Positions 7,387 through 24,027 of a stretch of 64,000 nt of DNA are shown here, piece after piece. The first letter of the stretch is position 1. Each line of letters opens with the position of its first letter. The notes beneath the pieces were generated by a model. It had not been told where the DNA came from. It made no database searches and saw nothing but the letters and a program-made list of their open reading frames with translations. The DNA comes from a virus: positions 124,001-188,000 of IMG/VR virus record IMGVR_UViG_3300020608_000013; one strand, 5' to 3'. Made by a program: the position numbers and the translations under genes.

Positions 7387-7423
7387 TGTTCGTAAATATT
7401 TACATTTAAAAGGAGTGTCGTTA

Positions 7424-10400
7424 ATGAGTGACAATGAACTACACCAACTCGATAGTAATGAAGAAGATCGTATGTTGGACGATCTGTTCAATGACGACTA
7501 CGATCCACAAGGTTTTGACAAAGGGTCGAGAGACCCAATACAAAGTTTTTATAAAGGGACACGTAAAGAACTAAAAGAGACATTTACAGACTCTTCAAAA
7601 ATTGAAGATTTATTAGAAAAAACCCTACCCGACGAATACGCAGAAGCGTTGAGCGTTTTTAACTCAACAACAAGTGCGATAGAAGATGTCGTTGACGCTT
7701 CTAAAAACGATTTCCGCTATAAAGCGAAAGAGATATTAACCTCAACCGAAAAGATATTGCCCAATAAAGCTACCTCACTTAAAGAGAGAATTAGTAAACT
7801 CAACGAGTCCATCACTATCGATGATGAAGATGATGGACCAATAGGGATCAGTGAGGAAGAGGAGTTAAAACAGCGCCGTAAAGAAGAGTTAAGTAGTGCT
7901 TTGGCGAAACTGGCGCGTAAGGAAGAAAATCGTGATATAGTTACGAGCGCTGCTACTTCAGCATCTGTCGATAACCTAACCTTATCGACGGTTAAAGGTA
8001 ATCAAGCGATACTAACCGCACTGTCTGCGTTAAGTCGTAGTACTGAACGCACGGCTAGTTTTCACGAACAGATTACAAATAGCTACTACCGCAAATCACT
8101 AGAACTCCAATACCGCCAATTATTTACCCAGATCGATACCTATAAACTGTCAAGAAGCCACTTTAAAGAAATTGAACTTATTATGAATAAAGTTCAACAT
8201 AATACTGGCTTACCAGAGTTTAAGAAAATTACTCAATCAGAGCGGTTTGCTGAATTGTCTCAAACGAAGTTCATGATGGCTGCACAAGATTCCTTGTTCG
8301 GTAATGCAGAGTTTATAAAGAAGGGGATAGAGAATCTTAAAGATAAACTAGGTAGTAAGATAGATACTATCAAGAATACGGCTTCCTTAGTTGCTCAAGG
8401 TAAAGAAGCTATTGGTGACGAAGACCCTTATGAAGAAGCGGGTAAATCGTTCTCTAAATCATTAGGTGTTGTGCTCGGCAAGCTCTTTAAAGGACCTACA
8501 GAAGAAGAACGTCTCGAAGCTTTGCGCGATAGAGCTGAGCGTGAAGACCCTACTTCTATATGGGGTAAACTTTATCGGAAAGTGACGGATGAGTACCATA
8601 AGCGTAATGATGTGTTTGAAGAGAACACGAGTGAGCTTAGAGCAAGGGTTCGCGAGATCGGTCAGGAACTTGGTCGCAATACTGCTAGTTTAGAAGACGT
8701 ATTAAACCGCACAGCCTCCTCGGAAAGATTAGAGGATAGTATGGGTGATGGGTTTGCCAAACGTTTTGGTAAGGCGGCTGCTCGTAATATACTTAGCGCT
8801 TTCGGGGAAGCGACGGATGTCAATTTTGAAGATCGTGATATTGAAGATGAGTTTGGTGCATTCGCTAAACGAGATAAAACGACATTAAACCAAGTAATCC
8901 CCACTTTACTTTCTAAAATATACGATGTAACTCGCGCTATACATGAGGGTAGCGATCAAGTTACTGAAACAGTTTACGATCGAAGAGATGGTAAAATTAA
9001 GTCAAGGGAGGCGCGTGGCGCTGAAGTACGTGAGCGGTTTACAGGTGAGGCGGTAGCAAGTTCTTACCGTGGTGCGCTAGAAGAACTCCATAAGAAAATA
9101 GATGATCTTGGTGATTTTGATGAGGTAACAAGTAAGGAAGTAAAACGTAAGTTAAGCGAGATTGGGTTTAACGATGTACTGTCTAACGGTCTAAGTGCGG
9201 TTAATATCGATACGTTACTTAATGAAAAGTTTTATACACCTGAAGAAGAAGACCTGTCAAATAAAATACGTGAGGTTTTAAAAGATCGGTTAGATGATGA
9301 TAAAAAGTTAAAAGGGGAACTTAATGATGAGTTAATACGGTTAAGGAAGAACATCCGTGACGTTAGGGGGGAGATGGATGAGTATAGGCTTGAGTACGGT
9401 AGCGATGGTCTGGTTGACTCTGGGTTAATTACTGTCGATAGTAACGGCTCGCAAAGTTTAAACTTAGACGCTTATCGGCGCTACCTACTGGGTGAGTCAG
9501 TACTACAATCAACAGAAAGTGAGCGTAGTGAGGACACATCTACAAGAGAGGAAACACGCGAACACGATCCAGAGCGTAGTCAACGATCTGTTGTGGACTA
9601 CACTACACTACTAACATCTATCGACCAGTCTTTAACTGTCTTGACAGGGCGATCTGTTACAGACTATAGTAGTCCGTTAACTACCCTGAACGACACTGTT
9701 AAGACGATAGCTGAAAAACCTACGCCTGACTATACTGATGCGTTTACACGGATTACAGAATTACTCGAAGAGGTTAGTCGTAAACAACCGATCGATTATT
9801 CAGATAAATTAGATTCAACAAACGCGTTATTGACACGCCTCTACGAACGCCCTACACCATCATTAACCGAAAGTTTAAGCGAAACCAACGCGTTACTTGA
9901 GTCGCAAGTGAGTCGTCCCGACTACGACTACAGTTACCATAAACAAACGAATAAGTTACTTAGTGGGATAAAAGAACAACTTAGTAATAATGGGACAGAT
10001 TTACAACCAATACTAGATGGTATGGCTAGCCACCGTGATAGCCTCATAGAGACGCATACGTTACTACACGACAAGCAACTTGAGGTTCAAGGTAGTTTAC
10101 AGTCGGTTGTTAGGGAAATGGGCGAGACGTTACTAGACTGTTGTCAAGAACAGTTGAATCGTCTGGGTACATCGAAGTCACAACCTACCGTGGAAGAGAC
10201 TTATGATACTACTTCAGTTGAAACAGGTGATTACAAACCTATCGATCTTGTAGAGCTGCTTTCAAAACGACCTGAAGAAATAGACCCCGAATTATTGAAA
10301 CGTATTGACGAACAGCGTTATGAGTTAGTAGAGGAAACTTATACAGACGGGAATGAGAAAGTCAAGGGGAGTTTAATTGAGAGTAAACTCCCTGCTGGGT

Positions 10401-13400
10401 ATGACCTTATTTATAAAGCAGGTTCGTTTACCGTAGGTAAGGTTGCAGGTAAAACGGTTAGTGCGATATATCGTCCCCGTGATGTCTATAAGAAGGGTTC
10501 TCCCTACCCAGCGATGACTGCGGTAGATATGCGAAACGGTCTTTATAGAGACCGTGAAAGTGGTGAGGTCATTAACACTTTACGGGACATTAAAGGCGAT
10601 GTAGTAAATACAGATGGTGATCTAGTATTAACGGATACCGATATTCGTAACGGACTTTACGATAAGAACGCTCGCCGTATAACACTACCTTTCTCAACAC
10701 TAATGCGGATTAGTCGTCGACTAGCTGGGTTTGTTGGTAAAGGAGTTGGGCGCTCTACTTCTTTATTATGGAATGTCGCAACCTTTAGTCCGTTAAGACG
10801 TAGACGCGATAGAACACGACCTAATGTGGAAGGCGTTGAGGGCGATAATGGTAGTCTTCGTAGAGGGCAAGTAAACGCGCCAAGAGTTGTTGAGGTCAAT
10901 GACCCAACAATCGATAAAATCCCTACAAAATTGGATAAGCTCATCAATGTCATTAAAGAACGTATACCTGATCCAAGACGAGCGTTTAATGACCATGATG
11001 GTGATGGTGTGCGTGAGGGGTCATGGCGTAACCTATTTAAGAGGAAAGAACGTCGTGAAGAAAGTGGTCGCGGCGACGTGACGAATATCACCACGACTGA
11101 AGAGAAGAAGGGTAAGGGTTGGTTGCTTTCCCTGTTAGGTGGTGCAGGGGTTGCTACACTAATTGGTCTTAAAAAGATCAAAGAGTTCTTCTCTGGTAGT
11201 TTAATGGATATGCTTAAAGGCGTGACTGAAGTTGCTACTAAGAGTGTCACTACTGTCGGAGGCGGTATATTAAAATTACTCGTGCCCGCAGGTGCAACGG
11301 CAGCAGCCGTAGGTTTAGGTCAACGCCTCATTAACTCAATACGAGGGCTGGGTAATCGCACAAGTAATACTTATGACCAAGTTGCCAATAACGCACCGAG
11401 ACTACTTAACGCGCAAGGGATCGCAGGGAGCCTTAGTCGATTAGGCGCTAGTGTCATGGGTACTATCGGGGGTTGGTTAGGTCTTACAGGGGATAGTAAT
11501 GGTAATCGTTCAAATACACCAGCAGGTCAAAACCAAACGACACAAACGCAACCAAGTCAAACACCACAAAACCAAACAACTCAAGCGCTGAATGATGCGA
11601 GAGACACATTATCTAATGTCGAAAGACCATCGCAAGATGGGCGAAGAGGTGACGGACGAGATACTCGTGACAACCGCAATCCGTTGACGGAGGAGGATCA
11701 AGATCGTCGTGGGCGTGGTAGAGGTCGGGGTGGTTTACTACGAAGAGCGGGTCGTGGTCTTCTCAATTTCGGTAAATCCATGTTCGGGCTTAATGGTGGT
11801 ACAGGGATGGCTGCCAGCGCAGGTCGAGCGGCAGGTTTAGCACGCGCTGGGTTAATCGCTGGTAGTGTTATGTCGGGTGCAGGTGGGTTAGGTGCTGTTG
11901 TTGCGACAGCTAGTACTGTACTGGCCTCGCCTGTTGTACTAGGCGCTGCAACGTTAGCGGCTGTAGGTTATGGAGGGTATAAACTATACAAACATTTAAA
12001 CCGCAATAATGTGACAGGTTTTGATAAACTACGTTTACTACAATACGGTTATAGCGATGGGATGGAGGATCATTACTATACCGTATTACGTCTTGAAGAA
12101 GCCATGCAAGATAACTGCATTTCTTATAAAGATGGTGTGGCGACTATTGATGAGAAAACAGTACCTGTTGAAGAGATATTTGAAATTTTCGATATTCGGG
12201 CTTCAGATAGTACGTTAGTAGCACCTTTCTTGACATGGTTTGATAAACGGTTTAAACCTGTGTTCATCAGACACCTAACAGTGTTATATGGGTTAAATTC
12301 ATCGCTTAAGTTAAAAGAGATTGATAAACTTGGCGGTGATCAGAAATTGACTTATTTGAAGCGAGCGTTATTTGAGACTGGTCCTTACCACATTAATGTC
12401 TCACCGTTGCATTACTATAAAGAGCTTAGTGTTAAATGGGAACATGTTAAAGCACATGGCGAGTCATTGAAAACGCAGTTGAGTAATGAGGATGAGAAAC
12501 AGAGTCCTGGAACGGGACCTGGTAGCGCTTCTACAACCATCAAGGAAGGAGAGAAAGAACAAGTTGCTGATGTCTATAGTAAGGAGAAAGATGAAGGTGG
12601 GCAGAATGTGCCAAAAGGTGTTGATAAACTCATTGCTATGCCGCCCGCACCAGAAGGTTTGTTTAAAGGTATTGATGCGTCTAACGCACAACCACGTATG
12701 CCTGATAAACCTGTTGGAGTACCTTACATCGACCAATCCTTCCAAGGGAAGAGTGAAGCCTATGTACCCGCATCTAGCGGACATGAAAACTACTTAACTT
12801 ATCGTGTACACAGCCCACAGCAAACAGCGAGTAGTCAGCCATTACCCGAAGCTCCAGCGACTAAAGGGTATACAGTAGTAGAAGCAAAGGCTGAGGATGT
12901 ACCGCAAGAGAACTACACGCTTAATACAAATGTCGCACCGACTAAAAAGAACATGCTTGAGATTATTCGTAAAGCTGCGCTTAAAGTTGGTGGTGTTGAC
13001 CCAACCTTCGCTCAAACAGTCGCGGCTATTGAGTCATCATTAAACCCTAAAGCGAAGGCTAAAACAACTTCAGCCTCTGGACTATTCCAGTTTGTTAAAG
13101 ATACATGGTTCGAGCAAGTCAAGAAACACGGGAAGAAGTACGGGATAACTAATCGTACCAATCGCTTTGATCCAATGGCTAACTCGCTATTAGGTGTTGA
13201 GTACATCAAGTCTAACTTAGCTGCCCTTAAAAAGGTTAAAAGTAGCCCTAATGCGACCGACGCTTATCTAGCGCATTTCTTAGGTGCTGGTGGTGCGCGT
13301 ACTTTACTACGACACTTAGCGAAGAACCCGAACACTAAAGGTAATGCGATCTTATCCAGAGCTGCTAAATCGAACAAGTCTATTTTCTACAAGAAGGGTA

Positions 13401-15115
13401 GAGCGAGAACAGTTCAGGAAATCTACGACTTAATGACAAATAAGGTTAAGAAGAGAGCGGCTGAGTATGGTATACCTTTTAACGCTTCGGGTGGTATAAC
13501 TAGAAGTGGTTCTAGTGATGGAGAGTCTACTAAAGGGGAAGTTGTTAAGTCCTCACCTGTAATGGACGTGACGTTCAATAAAGATGGTGTATCGCCGCCT
13601 ACCCCATTACCTGCAAATGGTGGGTTGACAGGCGCTGGTGGTAGTGCTAATACGCAAGGGGGTGTTCCTACAACACCTGCTAGTTTTATGGGAACGAGTC
13701 AGCAAACGTTCGGTACAAATAGCGCGACTACGCCAAATGTAGAAGGTAGTGGCTCAGCAGATAAACTATTTGGCGGCGGCGCAGACTCTCCTGAAATAAC
13801 GGGTAAGGGTGACGGTGGTGGTACACAAGGTAGCAGTGTTGTTGGTCACGGCGGGGCGTTGAAAGACGGCTCTGGTGGTATGAAATACATCAAGAAGCAA
13901 CGTTCTAGTATACGTTTCAAAGGACTCAACCCTCAGCTCTGGAAACAATTTCTTGGGATGGCTGAAGAGTATGGTGAGAAGACGGGTAAATCGATTCAAG
14001 TTAACGATGGTTTCCGTACTCGCGCAATGCAAGAGGCGTTGTTTAAGAAATATGGTCCAGGACGAGCTGCTAAGCCAGGACATTCTCGACACGAGACAGG
14101 GTTAGCTATAGACATCCAAAGTGCTACTGCGGCTAAACTTGAAAAGCTTGGTCTTATGAAGAAGTATGGGTTCACCAGACCTGTAGGTCAAGAACCTTGG
14201 CATTTAGAACCCGCAGGTATACAGCTTGACCCTAAAAGGTCTAAAAGTGACCCTGAATATGCAAGTAAGATGATTGCAGCCTCCGCAGGGCGTGGCGGTG
14301 GTGGTTATGGGATGAAGAAAAATGCTCGTAAATACGGTCGTGATGTAAGTTTGGCAAAATCCCTATTCGAGGCAGGCACGCCGATTAAACCTTCAAAACC
14401 AGCGTCACCGACTAACCTCGACAAGACAGAGAAGACTGCACTGAACAAGGCAGGTATTACACCACCCAAACCTGCTATAGGGGGTGGAGGCGAAGCGCCC
14501 TCTAAAGATCAGACGATGGCTAAACTCGCGGAAGCGAACAAAGTTGTTACAGGAGGGACAACAACAAGTGGTGTTGAATATGGTAGAGACGGTAAACCCT
14601 TACCACCACTACCACCTGGCACGGTTAAAACAAACAACCCTTGGCCAATGCCATCAGCAACTAAAGCTGCGCCGACACCAGCGCCTATAGTTGCCACCCC
14701 ACCTGTTATTGATAACCTTTCTAATAGTGACGCGGTAGCAAGTGTGGATAGTGAGCCTAAACCTAAGTCTACGCCTACAACAGTGCCAAAACAAAACAGT
14801 AATGTACAATCTGTACTTAGTGGGTTGAACCCTTATCAATCAAAAGAGTTTTCACCAACGGCTGAAATTGGTACGAATACAGCAAACATGGCCAAGACGC
14901 TTAGTTCGTCAGATGTCACGCTTAGAGAGATAAAGAGTCTGTTGAATCAATACCTTAAACAAAACAAACCTTTGAATACGGGGGATAAAGTTGAAGAACT
15001 TAAGCAAGAGGAGAGTATTGTTAAACCATTACAATCTAAAAACCCTACTAGTGTACCGTTACCTACCATAACGGAATCAAAACCTTTGCCAGTAAATATG
15101 GAAAGATCGATATAA
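7424..15115 (+). CDS. Giant virion peptidoglycan hydrolase, phiKZ gp181-like, with transglycosylase and M15 peptidase domains
   Basis: This 2563-residue protein is probably a tail-associated cell-wall-penetrating protein. The long N-terminal half is charged and helical. Residues about 720-855 hold six copies of a ~22-residue repeat (DYS..L...N.LL..L..RP). A DHDGDG calcium-loop-like motif lies at 1190-1195. A glycine/alanine-rich hydrophobic stretch spans about 1470-1530. A lysozyme-like transglycosylase domain (about 1845-1970) has E1870 in AAIESS followed by SASGLFQF. An M15/VanY-type zinc peptidase domain (about 2165-2265) has H2223 and D2230 in SRHETGLAID, and H2260 in PWHLEP. The C-terminal 300 residues are Pro/Thr/Gly-rich. 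I chose ATG 7424, 8 nt after AGGAG; a GTG at 7415 overlaps that site. Confidence 0.88.
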   Translation: MSDNELHQLDSNEEDRMLDDLFNDDYDPQGFDKGSRDPIQSFYKGTRKELKETFTDSSKIEDLLEKTLPDEYAEALSVFNSTTSAIEDVVDASKNDFRYKAKEILTSTEKILPNKATSLKERISKLNESITIDDEDDGPIGISEEEELKQRRKEELSSALAKLARKEENRDIVTSAATSASVDNLTLSTVKGNQAILTALSALSRSTERTASFHEQITNSYYRKSLELQYRQLFTQIDTYKLSRSHFKEIELIMNKVQHNTGLPEFKKITQSERFAELSQTKFMMAAQDSLFGNAEFIKKGIENLKDKLGSKIDTIKNTASLVAQGKEAIGDEDPYEEAGKSFSKSLGVVLGKLFKGPTEEERLEALRDRAEREDPTSIWGKLYRKVTDEYHKRNDVFEENTSELRARVREIGQELGRNTASLEDVLNRTASSERLEDSMGDGFAKRFGKAAARNILSAFGEATDVNFEDRDIEDEFGAFAKRDKTTLNQVIPTLLSKIYDVTRAIHEGSDQVTETVYDRRDGKIKSREARGAEVRERFTGEAVASSYRGALEELHKKIDDLGDFDEVTSKEVKRKLSEIGFNDVLSNGLSAVNIDTLLNEKFYTPEEEDLSNKIREVLKDRLDDDKKLKGELNDELIRLRKNIRDVRGEMDEYRLEYGSDGLVDSGLITVDSNGSQSLNLDAYRRYLLGESVLQSTESERSEDTSTREETREHDPERSQRSVVDYTTLLTSIDQSLTVLTGRSVTDYSSPLTTLNDTVKTIAEKPTPDYTDAFTRITELLEEVSRKQPIDYSDKLDSTNALLTRLYERPTPSLTESLSETNALLESQVSRPDYDYSYHKQTNKLLSGIKEQLSNNGTDLQPILDGMASHRDSLIETHTLLHDKQLEVQGSLQSVVREMGETLLDCCQEQLNRLGTSKSQPTVEETYDTTSVETGDYKPIDLVELLSKRPEEIDPELLKRIDEQRYELVEETYTDGNEKVKGSLIESKLPAGYDLIYKAGSFTVGKVAGKTVSAIYRPRDVYKKGSPYPAMTAVDMRNGLYRDRESGEVINTLRDIKGDVVNTDGDLVLTDTDIRNGLYDKNARRITLPFSTLMRISRRLAGFVGKGVGRSTSLLWNVATFSPLRRRRDRTRPNVEGVEGDNGSLRRGQVNAPRVVEVNDPTIDKIPTKLDKLINVIKERIPDPRRAFNDHDGDGVREGSWRNLFKRKERREESGRGDVTNITTTEEKKGKGWLLSLLGGAGVATLIGLKKIKEFFSGSLMDMLKGVTEVATKSVTTVGGGILKLLVPAGATAAAVGLGQRLINSIRGLGNRTSNTYDQVANNAPRLLNAQGIAGSLSRLGASVMGTIGGWLGLTGDSNGNRSNTPAGQNQTTQTQPSQTPQNQTTQALNDARDTLSNVERPSQDGRRGDGRDTRDNRNPLTEEDQDRRGRGRGRGGLLRRAGRGLLNFGKSMFGLNGGTGMAASAGRAAGLARAGLIAGSVMSGAGGLGAVVATASTVLASPVVLGAATLAAVGYGGYKLYKHLNRNNVTGFDKLRLLQYGYSDGMEDHYYTVLRLEEAMQDNCISYKDGVATIDEKTVPVEEIFEIFDIRASDSTLVAPFLTWFDKRFKPVFIRHLTVLYGLNSSLKLKEIDKLGGDQKLTYLKRALFETGPYHINVSPLHYYKELSVKWEHVKAHGESLKTQLSNEDEKQSPGTGPGSASTTIKEGEKEQVADVYSKEKDEGGQNVPKGVDKLIAMPPAPEGLFKGIDASNAQPRMPDKPVGVPYIDQSFQGKSEAYVPASSGHENYLTYRVHSPQQTASSQPLPEAPATKGYTVVEAKAEDVPQENYTLNTNVAPTKKNMLEIIRKAALKVGGVDPTFAQTVAAIESSLNPKAKAKTTSASGLFQFVKDTWFEQVKKHGKKYGITNRTNRFDPMANSLLGVEYIKSNLAALKKVKSSPNATDAYLAHFLGAGGARTLLRHLAKNPNTKGNAILSRAAKSNKSIFYKKGRARTVQEIYDLMTNKVKKRAAEYGIPFNASGGITRSGSSDGESTKGEVVKSSPVMDVTFNKDGVSPPTPLPANGGLTGAGGSANTQGGVPTTPASFMGTSQQTFGTNSATTPNVEGSGSADKLFGGGADSPEITGKGDGGGTQGSSVVGHGGALKDGSGGMKYIKKQRSSIRFKGLNPQLWKQFLGMAEEYGEKTGKSIQVNDGFRTRAMQEALFKKYGPGRAAKPGHSRHETGLAIDIQSATAAKLEKLGLMKKYGFTRPVGQEPWHLEPAGIQLDPKRSKSDPEYASKMIAASAGRGGGGYGMKKNARKYGRDVSLAKSLFEAGTPIKPSKPASPTNLDKTEKTALNKAGITPPKPAIGGGGEAPSKDQTMAKLAEANKVVTGGTTTSGVEYGRDGKPLPPLPPGTVKTNNPWPMPSATKAAPTPAPIVATPPVIDNLSNSDAVASVDSEPKPKSTPTTVPKQNSNVQSVLSGLNPYQSKEFSPTAEIGTNTANMAKTLSSSDVTLREIKSLLNQYLKQNKPLNTGDKVEELKQEESIVKPLQSKNPTSVPLPTITESKPLPVNMERSI

Positions 15116-21050: not shown

Positions 21051-21719
21051 TTATAAATTATTATCAATGTGCATCGCTTTAAGCGCAATGGATAAGACTA
21101 ACTTAGACTTCACTTCACCGCTATAAGGGGCGATAGTATCGAGTGTCGTATTACCGTGTCTTGCGAGTAAGGTAGTCATAGCATTATACCCCTTCAGATC
21201 GCCACCACGGTATTTATCTAGTTCAAGGTTAGTTTTGGTTAGCCCAAGCCCTGCGAGTATCGATACTTCGATTTTAGAAAGTCTAGCACCTTTAGAATCT
21301 CTCGTCGGTTGGTTTGTCATTTTATCAACCATCATCGAACTTGCTTTTGGTATCTTTACTTTCTTACTCCAGAGTTGAGAGACTAAACGTACGGATATTT
21401 CTAACAACATGAATTTGTTAGGCGTTTTAAATCGCATTCCATCTTCTTTAAACCAAAGGTGTTGGTAAAATTCAACGCCGTATTTTTTACCCACTTTCAG
21501 TAGATGTGCTTTCGTTATGGTCTCTTCTTCTAAATTTGGGAGGGTTACATGAACAACTTCTTTACCTGTAGATAAGTTAATCATGTATTGATCGAATTCT
21601 TCATCACTTAGTGTTTTGAAGTGGTCTTCATAATAAGCACGGTTAACACCTTTGTCGTTTGTACACAAAGTGTCACAAAATTCTAAGATAGCTTGTTCAG
21701 CTTGCTCTCTTCTAGTCAT
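21051..21719 (-). CDS. Hypothetical protein, 222 aa
   Basis: Unrecognised, basic and mostly helical. AAGGT precedes ATG 21719. It lies downstream of the DUF488 gene; the DUF488 reading frame beyond its amber codon ends 15 nt before this start. Confidence 0.68.
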   Translation of the reverse strand: MTRREQAEQAILEFCDTLCTNDKGVNRAYYEDHFKTLSDEEFDQYMINLSTGKEVVHVTLPNLEEETITKAHLLKVGKKYGVEFYQHLWFKEDGMRFKTPNKFMLLEISVRLVSQLWSKKVKIPKASSMMVDKMTNQPTRDSKGARLSKIEVSILAGLGLTKTNLELDKYRGGDLKGYNAMTTLLARHGNTTLDTIAPYSGEVKSKLVLSIALKAMHIDNNL

Positions 21720-21734
21720 ATTTTACCTTTTAGT

Positions 21735-21905
21735 TTACAAAATGTCTTGAACACCTAAGTATCGCTTAGCAATTGGGTGGTCTTCCATGTTTTTGAAATC
21801 CTCTACTCCTAACTGCCTGTTTAATCTTTTATCTAGACCATTATGATGAAGTAGTCTAGTGGGTGTGTCGTTATTTTTATGGTGCGTGAGGTAGCGACCT
21901 ATTTG
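21735..21905 (-). pseudogene. In-frame continuation of the DUF488 gene beyond an amber codon
   Basis: After the TAG at 21906-21908 the same frame continues for 56 codons to TAA at 21735-21737. It begins QIGRYLTHH, which fits where DUF488 proteins continue after their CHR motif. With this part the protein would be about 166 residues, a normal DUF488 length. No independent start codon or ribosome-binding site is seen, so it is either dead sequence or expressed by readthrough. Confidence 0.6.
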
Positions 21906-22235
21906 CTAAAACCGATGGCACTTTTCGGGATCGCCTTCACTACACATGAACGCCGCGTTGATAATGGCGTGTTTATTGTGGTACGTTATAATGGAATCTA
22001 GTTTCTCACGCATAAGAGGGACATCGGTTTTTAACCCACCTAACGTATTCCCGCGATGTAGATAGGATACACCATACTCTTCCAAGTGTTGTGAGAAGCT
22101 TTCTCTATTGTAACTTGGCGCGTATTTAGAGTAAGGTATTGACCTAACATCTATTAACACCTTAATATTTTCTTCACACAACCGCTCCATAAAAACAGGT
22201 AAAGGTGTATTTGAATGACCTACTAAATAGAACAT
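21906..22235 (-). CDS. DUF488-family protein, stopped early by an in-frame amber codon
   Basis: The 109 residues before TAG match DUF488 well: an N-terminal VGHSNTPLPVF segment, then LIDVRSIPYSKY, then the C-terminal CSEGDPEKCHR signature that contains the conserved cysteines. The function of the family is not established. ATG 22235 follows AGGAG. The frame is cut at CHRF-TAG and continues as plausible DUF488 sequence (21735-21905). Either this is a recent nonsense mutation, or readthrough or suppression yields the full protein. At least ten other genes in the window end naturally in TAG, so general recoding is unlikely. Confidence 0.72.
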   Translation of the reverse strand: MFYLVGHSNTPLPVFMERLCEENIKVLIDVRSIPYSKYAPSYNRESFSQHLEEYGVSYLHRGNTLGGLKTDVPLMREKLDSIITYHNKHAIINAAFMCSEGDPEKCHRF

Positions 22236-22253
22236 TATTTCTCCTAAAAAGAA

Positions 22254-22277
22254 GCCCTGTGCTATCGACGACAGGGC
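22254..22277 (-). terminator. Short hairpin before the DUF488 gene
   Basis: A 7-bp GC-rich stem (gccctgt / acagggc) with a 10-nt loop lies between the 94-residue gene and DUF488. It has no clear T-run; weak terminator or processing site. Confidence 0.4.
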
Positions 22278-22285
22278 AGTATCTG

Positions 22286-22570
22286 TTAACGGTAATTAGC
22301 AACCAGTGTAGGTAATATTTTAGTTTTTAAACTGTTGAACCAATCTAAGGTATTAATATCACTCATTAAGGTTTCTCTAATTGATTTTGTGTTAATAAAT
22401 GCCATTGTTGCTAGTGAGAAAAAGAACGCATTAGCTAACTTAATTTTTTCTATTAAATCAGTAGACTTTCTCAGTTTTTTAATGCGCCAATCGTTTTTAT
22501 AAAAAAACAAAATCTCATTGTTACTGTGTTGCTTAATTAAGCTATCAAGTGTTTTGTCGAAATCATCCAT
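22286..22570 (-). CDS. Hypothetical protein, 94 aa
   Basis: Unrecognised small basic protein. Its ATG at 22570 overlaps the region just after the stop of the upstream ATPase gene (TAGTGATG), with GGAAAA upstream, implying coupled translation. An in-frame TTG at 22585 is less likely. A hydrophobic stretch (LANAFFFSLATMAFI) lies mid-protein. Confidence 0.65.
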   Translation of the reverse strand: MDDFDKTLDSLIKQHSNNEILFFYKNDWRIKKLRKSTDLIEKIKLANAFFFSLATMAFINTKSIRETLMSDINTLDWFNSLKTKILPTLVANYR

Positions 22571-22572
22571 CA

Positions 22573-24027
22573 CTATTTTTTCCAAAATGGAGTATATAAC
22601 TCGTGGGACATTTTAATCATGTCCATTGTAGATAAAAATGGGGGGTCTAGGTTGTCGTTATCATACATCCACCACCCACGAGTTTTAAGTAACTCGTTCC
22701 AATCCCACTTACCTTTCAATTTCTCAAGTAACTCTGAAGGACTGACATGTAAGTGTAAGTTGTTAGTAGCAGAAGGTCGCCACATGTTCTTCATTTGCGC
22801 TAACTCGTTAGTGATTTCTACGGCGCGGCAGAATAAGGGGTCGTCCTCAATGAGTTGACGTAGACTATTGTTTTGAAATTTTTTCTCAGGATAAAGTTCG
22901 AGCGTATACCATGCACCACCACGCTTAATACCATAACCCTTACACATCTCGTTCAAGTAATACCATTCACTCAACGTGTTTTGAACACCCTCGGTTTGTG
23001 AATAAACGACAGGTACGACAACACCAGATATATTCGATTTACCACGATGTTGTGTTATTGTTACGATTTTTAAATCAGGGTCATATAGGTGTTTGTCATC
23101 GGTACTTCTAGGGTATTTTGTAAAACCCGTGTCTTTATTTAGTAAAAGTTTAGGTTCACTTAATAGCCAGAAGTTGTTAATTAAGTAGAAAAACTTTCTA
23201 GACACGCCTCGTATATTGAGTTTACCCCCTAGTGTCGGTAAGAGGTAATCTTCGAGTGGTTTCTTAAATGATTTGCGACCTGAACTAATTTCTAGAACAG
23301 GTTCTACGTGTGCTGTAAGACAAATACGTGCGTTAGCTTGCTGACACGAGGTAGAGAGGTGTGAGAGTATCTGAGAGCGTGCCCTACCGACATGAGCGGG
23401 CGCAGTATTTCGTAGTGCGTCGTCTACATCAGTCGTGTCTTTAATTTTTTGATCCGCCGAAGTACCGAATTCAGATAGGCTGTCGCAAGTACCAAAACTA
23501 TCAACACGTTGCTGAAACAAACTCTCACCATCACGATCGATGAAAGGAGTGTCTATTTTCTTCATGAGTGCTTCTTTATCACGGTTAAATTTAAACCAAC
23601 TTGAAAAAAATTTTTCACCCGCCATAGTTGCTCGGTTACATGGAGTGATATGACCATCTAAGATAAAGTCAGTGATGTCTCCTAAAGTCGTATTATTAGC
23701 ATAAGTTTGTAAACGTGCGTCATTACTCGTTTGTTCGGTATCGTAAGGGTCTATTTTAATCATATCCGTGGCTGCAAAAACCCGTGCTGCCGCAGTGAAT
23801 AGATCGTGGTACATTACCGTAGACTTACCTGCTTGTGCTATACCTGCATAGCCTGTAATAGGGGCAAAACCGCCATTTAGTAAAGATTCACCATGTTTCC
23901 CTTCGACGTAATAACCCGTAGAAATATCACGCCCTCCGCCAATATTGATATTGGTAAACATTGAAGGCGCTTTTTCTATATTAGATTCGGGAAAACCGCC
24001 CATCATCGCTTTGTCTTTTTTTGCCAT
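22573..24027 (-). CDS. RecA-fold P-loop ATPase (UvsX/RecA-like)
   Basis: A Walker A motif, GIAQAGKST (residues 62-70, K68 S69), follows a strand-rich N-terminus, and a hydrophobic strand ARICLTAHV near residue 230 is in the position of a Walker B or sensor strand. The arrangement resembles RecA/UvsX-type ATPases of large phages, used in recombination-dependent replication and repair, but a DnaB-like RecA fold cannot be excluded. The 484-residue length is long for UvsX. It starts a minus-strand operon running through the 94-residue gene toward DUF488. The start ATG has only a weak AGAGA site. Confidence 0.6.
   Translation of the reverse strand: MAKKDKAMMGGFPESNIEKAPSMFTNINIGGGRDISTGYYVEGKHGESLLNGGFAPITGYAGIAQAGKSTVMYHDLFTAAARVFAATDMIKIDPYDTEQTSNDARLQTYANNTTLGDITDFILDGHITPCNRATMAGEKFFSSWFKFNRDKEALMKKIDTPFIDRDGESLFQQRVDSFGTCDSLSEFGTSADQKIKDTTDVDDALRNTAPAHVGRARSQILSHLSTSCQQANARICLTAHVEPVLEISSGRKSFKKPLEDYLLPTLGGKLNIRGVSRKFFYLINNFWLLSEPKLLLNKDTGFTKYPRSTDDKHLYDPDLKIVTITQHRGKSNISGVVVPVVYSQTEGVQNTLSEWYYLNEMCKGYGIKRGGAWYTLELYPEKKFQNNSLRQLIEDDPLFCRAVEITNELAQMKNMWRPSATNNLHLHVSPSELLEKLKGKWDWNELLKTRGWWMYDNDNLDPPFLSTMDMIKMSHELYTPFWKK

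Follow-up and report, generated by a model that had tools for sequence, protein, structure and literature searches.

A single in-frame TAG in a DUF488 gene of a divergent phiKZ-like jumbo phage, probably a recent nonsense mutation

A gene of the DUF488 family (PF04343), interrupted once by an in-frame TAG, was found in the window analysed here, a whole stretch of 64,000 nucleotides corresponding to positions 124001-188000 of a 212,020-bp virus record. The interruption is probably a recent single nonsense change at codon 110, and the gene, apparently carried as cargo by a phiKZ-like jumbo phage, is probably dispensable. The gene lies on the minus strand (22235-21735), with a Shine-Dalgarno-like AGGAGA (22239-22244, minus strand) upstream of its ATG, and reads as 109 codons, TAG, 56 codons and TAA, that is, a frame of 166 codons broken only at codon 110 (21908-21906). 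Translation across the stop gives MFYLVGHSN...EKCHRF, stop, QIGRYL...GVQDIL, stop. The preliminary description had reported a DUF488 gene of normal total length with a lone in-frame UAG followed by CAA. Translation and Pfam bear out the gene and its stop, with the strand corrected to minus, and 166 codons is in keeping with phage DUF488 members, which are mostly 135 to 215 aa long.

PF04343 matches the 109-aa part with an E value of 1.6e-13 (51.8 bits) and the read-through frame with one of 5.6e-13 (50 bits), both well over the gathering cut-off of 22.2 bits, and the gene is thus a member of DUF488. In alignments, the conserved D-V-R, P-x-S and C-H-R residues of the family are all present. The open ORF before the stop (21906-22235, minus strand; 109 aa plus TAG) contains G6, D29/R31, P34, C98 and C106-H107-R108, and the frame through the helix that follows CHR, uninterrupted in the family, is broken in the phage gene by the TAG. 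No second DUF488 copy is present in the 212,020-bp record.

The stop is followed by 56 open codons and a TAA (21735-21905, minus strand). At this composition a run of this length is expected by chance after about 2.7% of stops, which is not rare, and homology is therefore needed as evidence for a continuation. The residues X-QIGRYL at and after the stop align with L-LVGRAL and similar sequences that follow the invariant CHR in homologues (e.g. CHRCLLVGRAL). A family profile built without the phage sequence gave 105.0 bits up to the stop and 111.9 bits with the tail included, a gain of 6.9 bits, while shuffled tails gave 105.6 +/- 1.6 bits (s.d.) and matched the real score in one of 300 cases. 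Scored alone, the tail falls below detection (-1.2 bits), so roughly its first ten residues provide the support; homology is clear only up to about residue 120, and past there the tail is divergent. Across 21735-21905 the continuing frame is the sole open frame of the six and also has the top codon score. The next gene's ATG is 15 bp from the end of the full frame and 186 bp from the TAG, the latter being towards the high end of the spacings between neighbouring genes. The column in which the stop falls is variable in the family, with L, I, R, S, Q, K, Y, H, E and F all seen there.

Homologues were drawn from 19 IMG/VR contigs (17 distinct, as two pairs look identical) and nine annotated genes, eight from plasmids and one from a phage (ValentiniPuff). 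None of these ends at the position of codon 110, which answers the earlier suggestion that homologues be checked for a natural end at this point. With the whole protein as query, no close relatives of the gene were found in IMG/VR; the N-terminal part retrieved one 37% match, and a four-sequence alignment retrieved 18 loci. A search for relatives with a DNA pattern spanning the stop gave no match while the stop codon was left free. When the TAG was fixed, one contig matched, but by chance, out of frame inside an unrelated 489-aa gene. No relative sharing the codon-110 stop was thus found in the homologue and DNA-pattern searches. The gene had no match in the PDB sequence search, PHROGs or NCBIfam, and among 50,697 phage records a single one has a detectable DUF488 match. 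The parts of the DUF488 literature consulted give no function for this family member. On the plasmids compared, the DUF488 genes form tandem pairs, preceded by an annotated hypothetical gene in three of the four cases. On a 40-kb viral contig (stretch 3001-4245), the DUF488 gene has a ParB-like gene immediately after it and, ahead of it, a gene that, judged by eye, resembles DNA polymerase sliding clamps; an archaeal DUF488-HTH protein fused to a ParB-CTPase fold binds CTP (PMC12704722).

The read-through frame was modelled with AlphaFold2 from 16 sequences (mean pLDDT 83). The model has a confident helix at residues 107-118, whose start slightly precedes the stop, and its last strand at 126-128; a stop at codon 110 leaves little of this helix and none of the strand. 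Deprived of these closing elements of the alpha/beta core, the 109-aa fragment would probably be inactive. The fold search gave matches below threshold only (best E 1.9e-3, TM at most about 0.5), and a likeness to dual-specificity phosphatases, to which many of these matches belong, was not accepted.

The 212,020-bp record carries a 141-bp terminal direct repeat and looks complete, the repeat being consistent with a circular assembly. Judged by its genes, the phage is a divergent phiKZ-like jumbo phage: it has multisubunit RNA polymerase genes (phrog_2986, phrog_3233), uvsX neighbours and conserved gene order, and identities between its RNA polymerase beta protein and those of named phages among the matches listed are about 32-34%. 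Upstream of the DUF488 gene is the core gene for a UvsX-like recombinase (22573-24027, minus strand; phrog_97), and downstream is the core gene of phiKZ gp149 type, an 'RNA polymerase beta subunit' (21051-21719, minus strand; phrog_3233), followed by the next conserved phage gene (20282-21088, minus strand; phrog_3328). The DUF488 gene shares the interval with a 99-aa ORF (22286-22585, minus strand) that has no Pfam or PHROG match. In PhiPA3 and Noxifer the uvsX-gp149 interval holds other small hypothetical genes, and DUF488 is undetectable in the matching stretches. The small genes of 21720-22572 thus differ between these two phages and the present one, and the interval is apparently a variable slot. 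As other small genes fill it elsewhere and DUF488 is rare among phage records, the DUF488 gene appears to be cargo. No close phage relatives were found through the RNA polymerase gene, and the gp149-type gene retrieved one 35% relative, whose fetched stretch is without DUF488; with the genes tried, neither IMG/VR nor the annotated phages yielded a close relative of the phage. The longest ORF in the window, of 2566 aa, is at 7415-15115 on the plus strand.

Phages often lose cargo genes through point mutation. Here, one nonsense change at codon 110 would halt translation at the TAG, costing the 109-aa product its final helix and strand, and loss of the gene would be tolerated because its slot, flanked by the core genes uvsX and gp149, is variable. 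As the tail is undamaged, the lesion is likely to be recent. The very recent mutation put forward in the preliminary description is supported by the presence of one lesion, by the homologous continuation and by the failure of any homologue to end there.

An error in the consensus, or a minority haplotype, would have left the same picture, a single lesion followed by an undamaged tail, in which case the base would be wrong, or belong to one strain, and the gene would be intact in most of the phages. The record is from a metagenome and its 141-bp end repeat is k-mer-sized, both of which fit such an origin. However, short-read consensus sequences rarely contain substitutions of this kind. Moreover, the record was scanned for ORFs with a coding-like continuation lacking a nearby start codon, and a few candidates reached comparable codon scores (e.g. 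a TAA at record positions 96275-97108, on codon score only), but no second clear interruption was found in the 212 kb, which argues against an assembly that is generally rich in errors. A wrong base or a one-strain variant is therefore considered unlikely, a base error in assembly being less likely than an ordinary loss-of-function mutation, and the base is probably real.

Decoding of the stop, by an amber suppressor tRNA of the host or through a leaky context, would yield some 166-aa protein, and is in accord with a tail that is still open and family-like and with a stop column that tolerates many residues. Suppression by a tRNA of the phage itself, as raised earlier, finds no counterpart in the record: ARAGORN, Rfam and a direct search with tRNA models detected no tRNA gene anywhere in the end-repeated 212 kb, piece borders included. 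Some recoding phages lack a suppressor tRNA of their own (PMC10607447), and absence of tRNA genes alone is thus not decisive. TAG closes 41 of 190 probable ORFs and is therefore an ordinary terminator in this genome, so that global recoding had rightly been judged unlikely. With TAG in use as a terminator, no second clear case and no suppressor tRNA (CUA), the phage does not have the features of a TAG-recoding genome.

The context of the stop was earlier said to resemble known leaky UAG contexts. It does share UAG CAA with the tobacco mosaic virus (TMV) motif, but the type I readthrough consensus, UAG CAR YYA (PMC3542737), is described for plant viruses, and the bacteriophage site, UAG CAA AUA, departs from CARYYA at the first Y; the resemblance is thus partial and weak. 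Exact UAG-CARYYA strings number six in the window, where 4.9 are expected. No stable RNA structure was found directly 3' of the stop. About 46 nt downstream lies a hairpin whose z is -3.2 in one chosen stretch but drops to -1.2 and -0.2 in others, so that the signal is not robust. Known readthrough stimulators begin about 8 nt from the stop, so the hairpin is too distant to act like them. The stop is moreover common to no relative, the single match to the DNA pattern being the chance one in an unrelated gene. Beyond the open tail, readthrough or host suppression finds no positive support, and we consider it very unlikely; nothing here indicates that the phage reads through the TAG. Its specific form, in which the host, through a natural amber suppressor or a leaky context, decodes UAG in one accessory gene of a jumbo phage that has no tRNA genes, and full DUF488 protein is made only in certain hosts, is likewise very unlikely. 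If decoding through UAG were demonstrated, expression of a single phage gene would here depend on the host.

It is also very improbable that the 109-aa product works as a shortened DUF488 protein while the tail decays: the strongly conserved residues, including all those invariant in the family, do precede codon 110, but no homologue is so short after CHR, the stop falls in the model at the start of a core helix, and the tail shows no further damage.

The finding is real and ordinary and, if the stop is the recent nonsense mutation that it seems to be, matters little in itself. It does warn against taking a TMV-like codon after a single in-frame stop as evidence for readthrough. As in the TAG-recoding phage phAss-1, an in-frame TAG lies within a phage gene; however, in phAss-1 41 ORFs contain TAG and three genes encode suppressor tRNAs (PMC10607447), whereas here there are one such gene and zero tRNA genes. 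As in type I readthrough of the TMV kind, CAA follows the UAG, but CAAATA lies outside CARYYA and the genome is that of a bacteriophage rather than a plant virus. With PhiPA3 and Noxifer, the phage has in common multisubunit RNA polymerase beta genes and the order uvsX, small genes and gp149-type gene; it differs from these two in that, at 212 kb, it carries a DUF488 gene in the slot.
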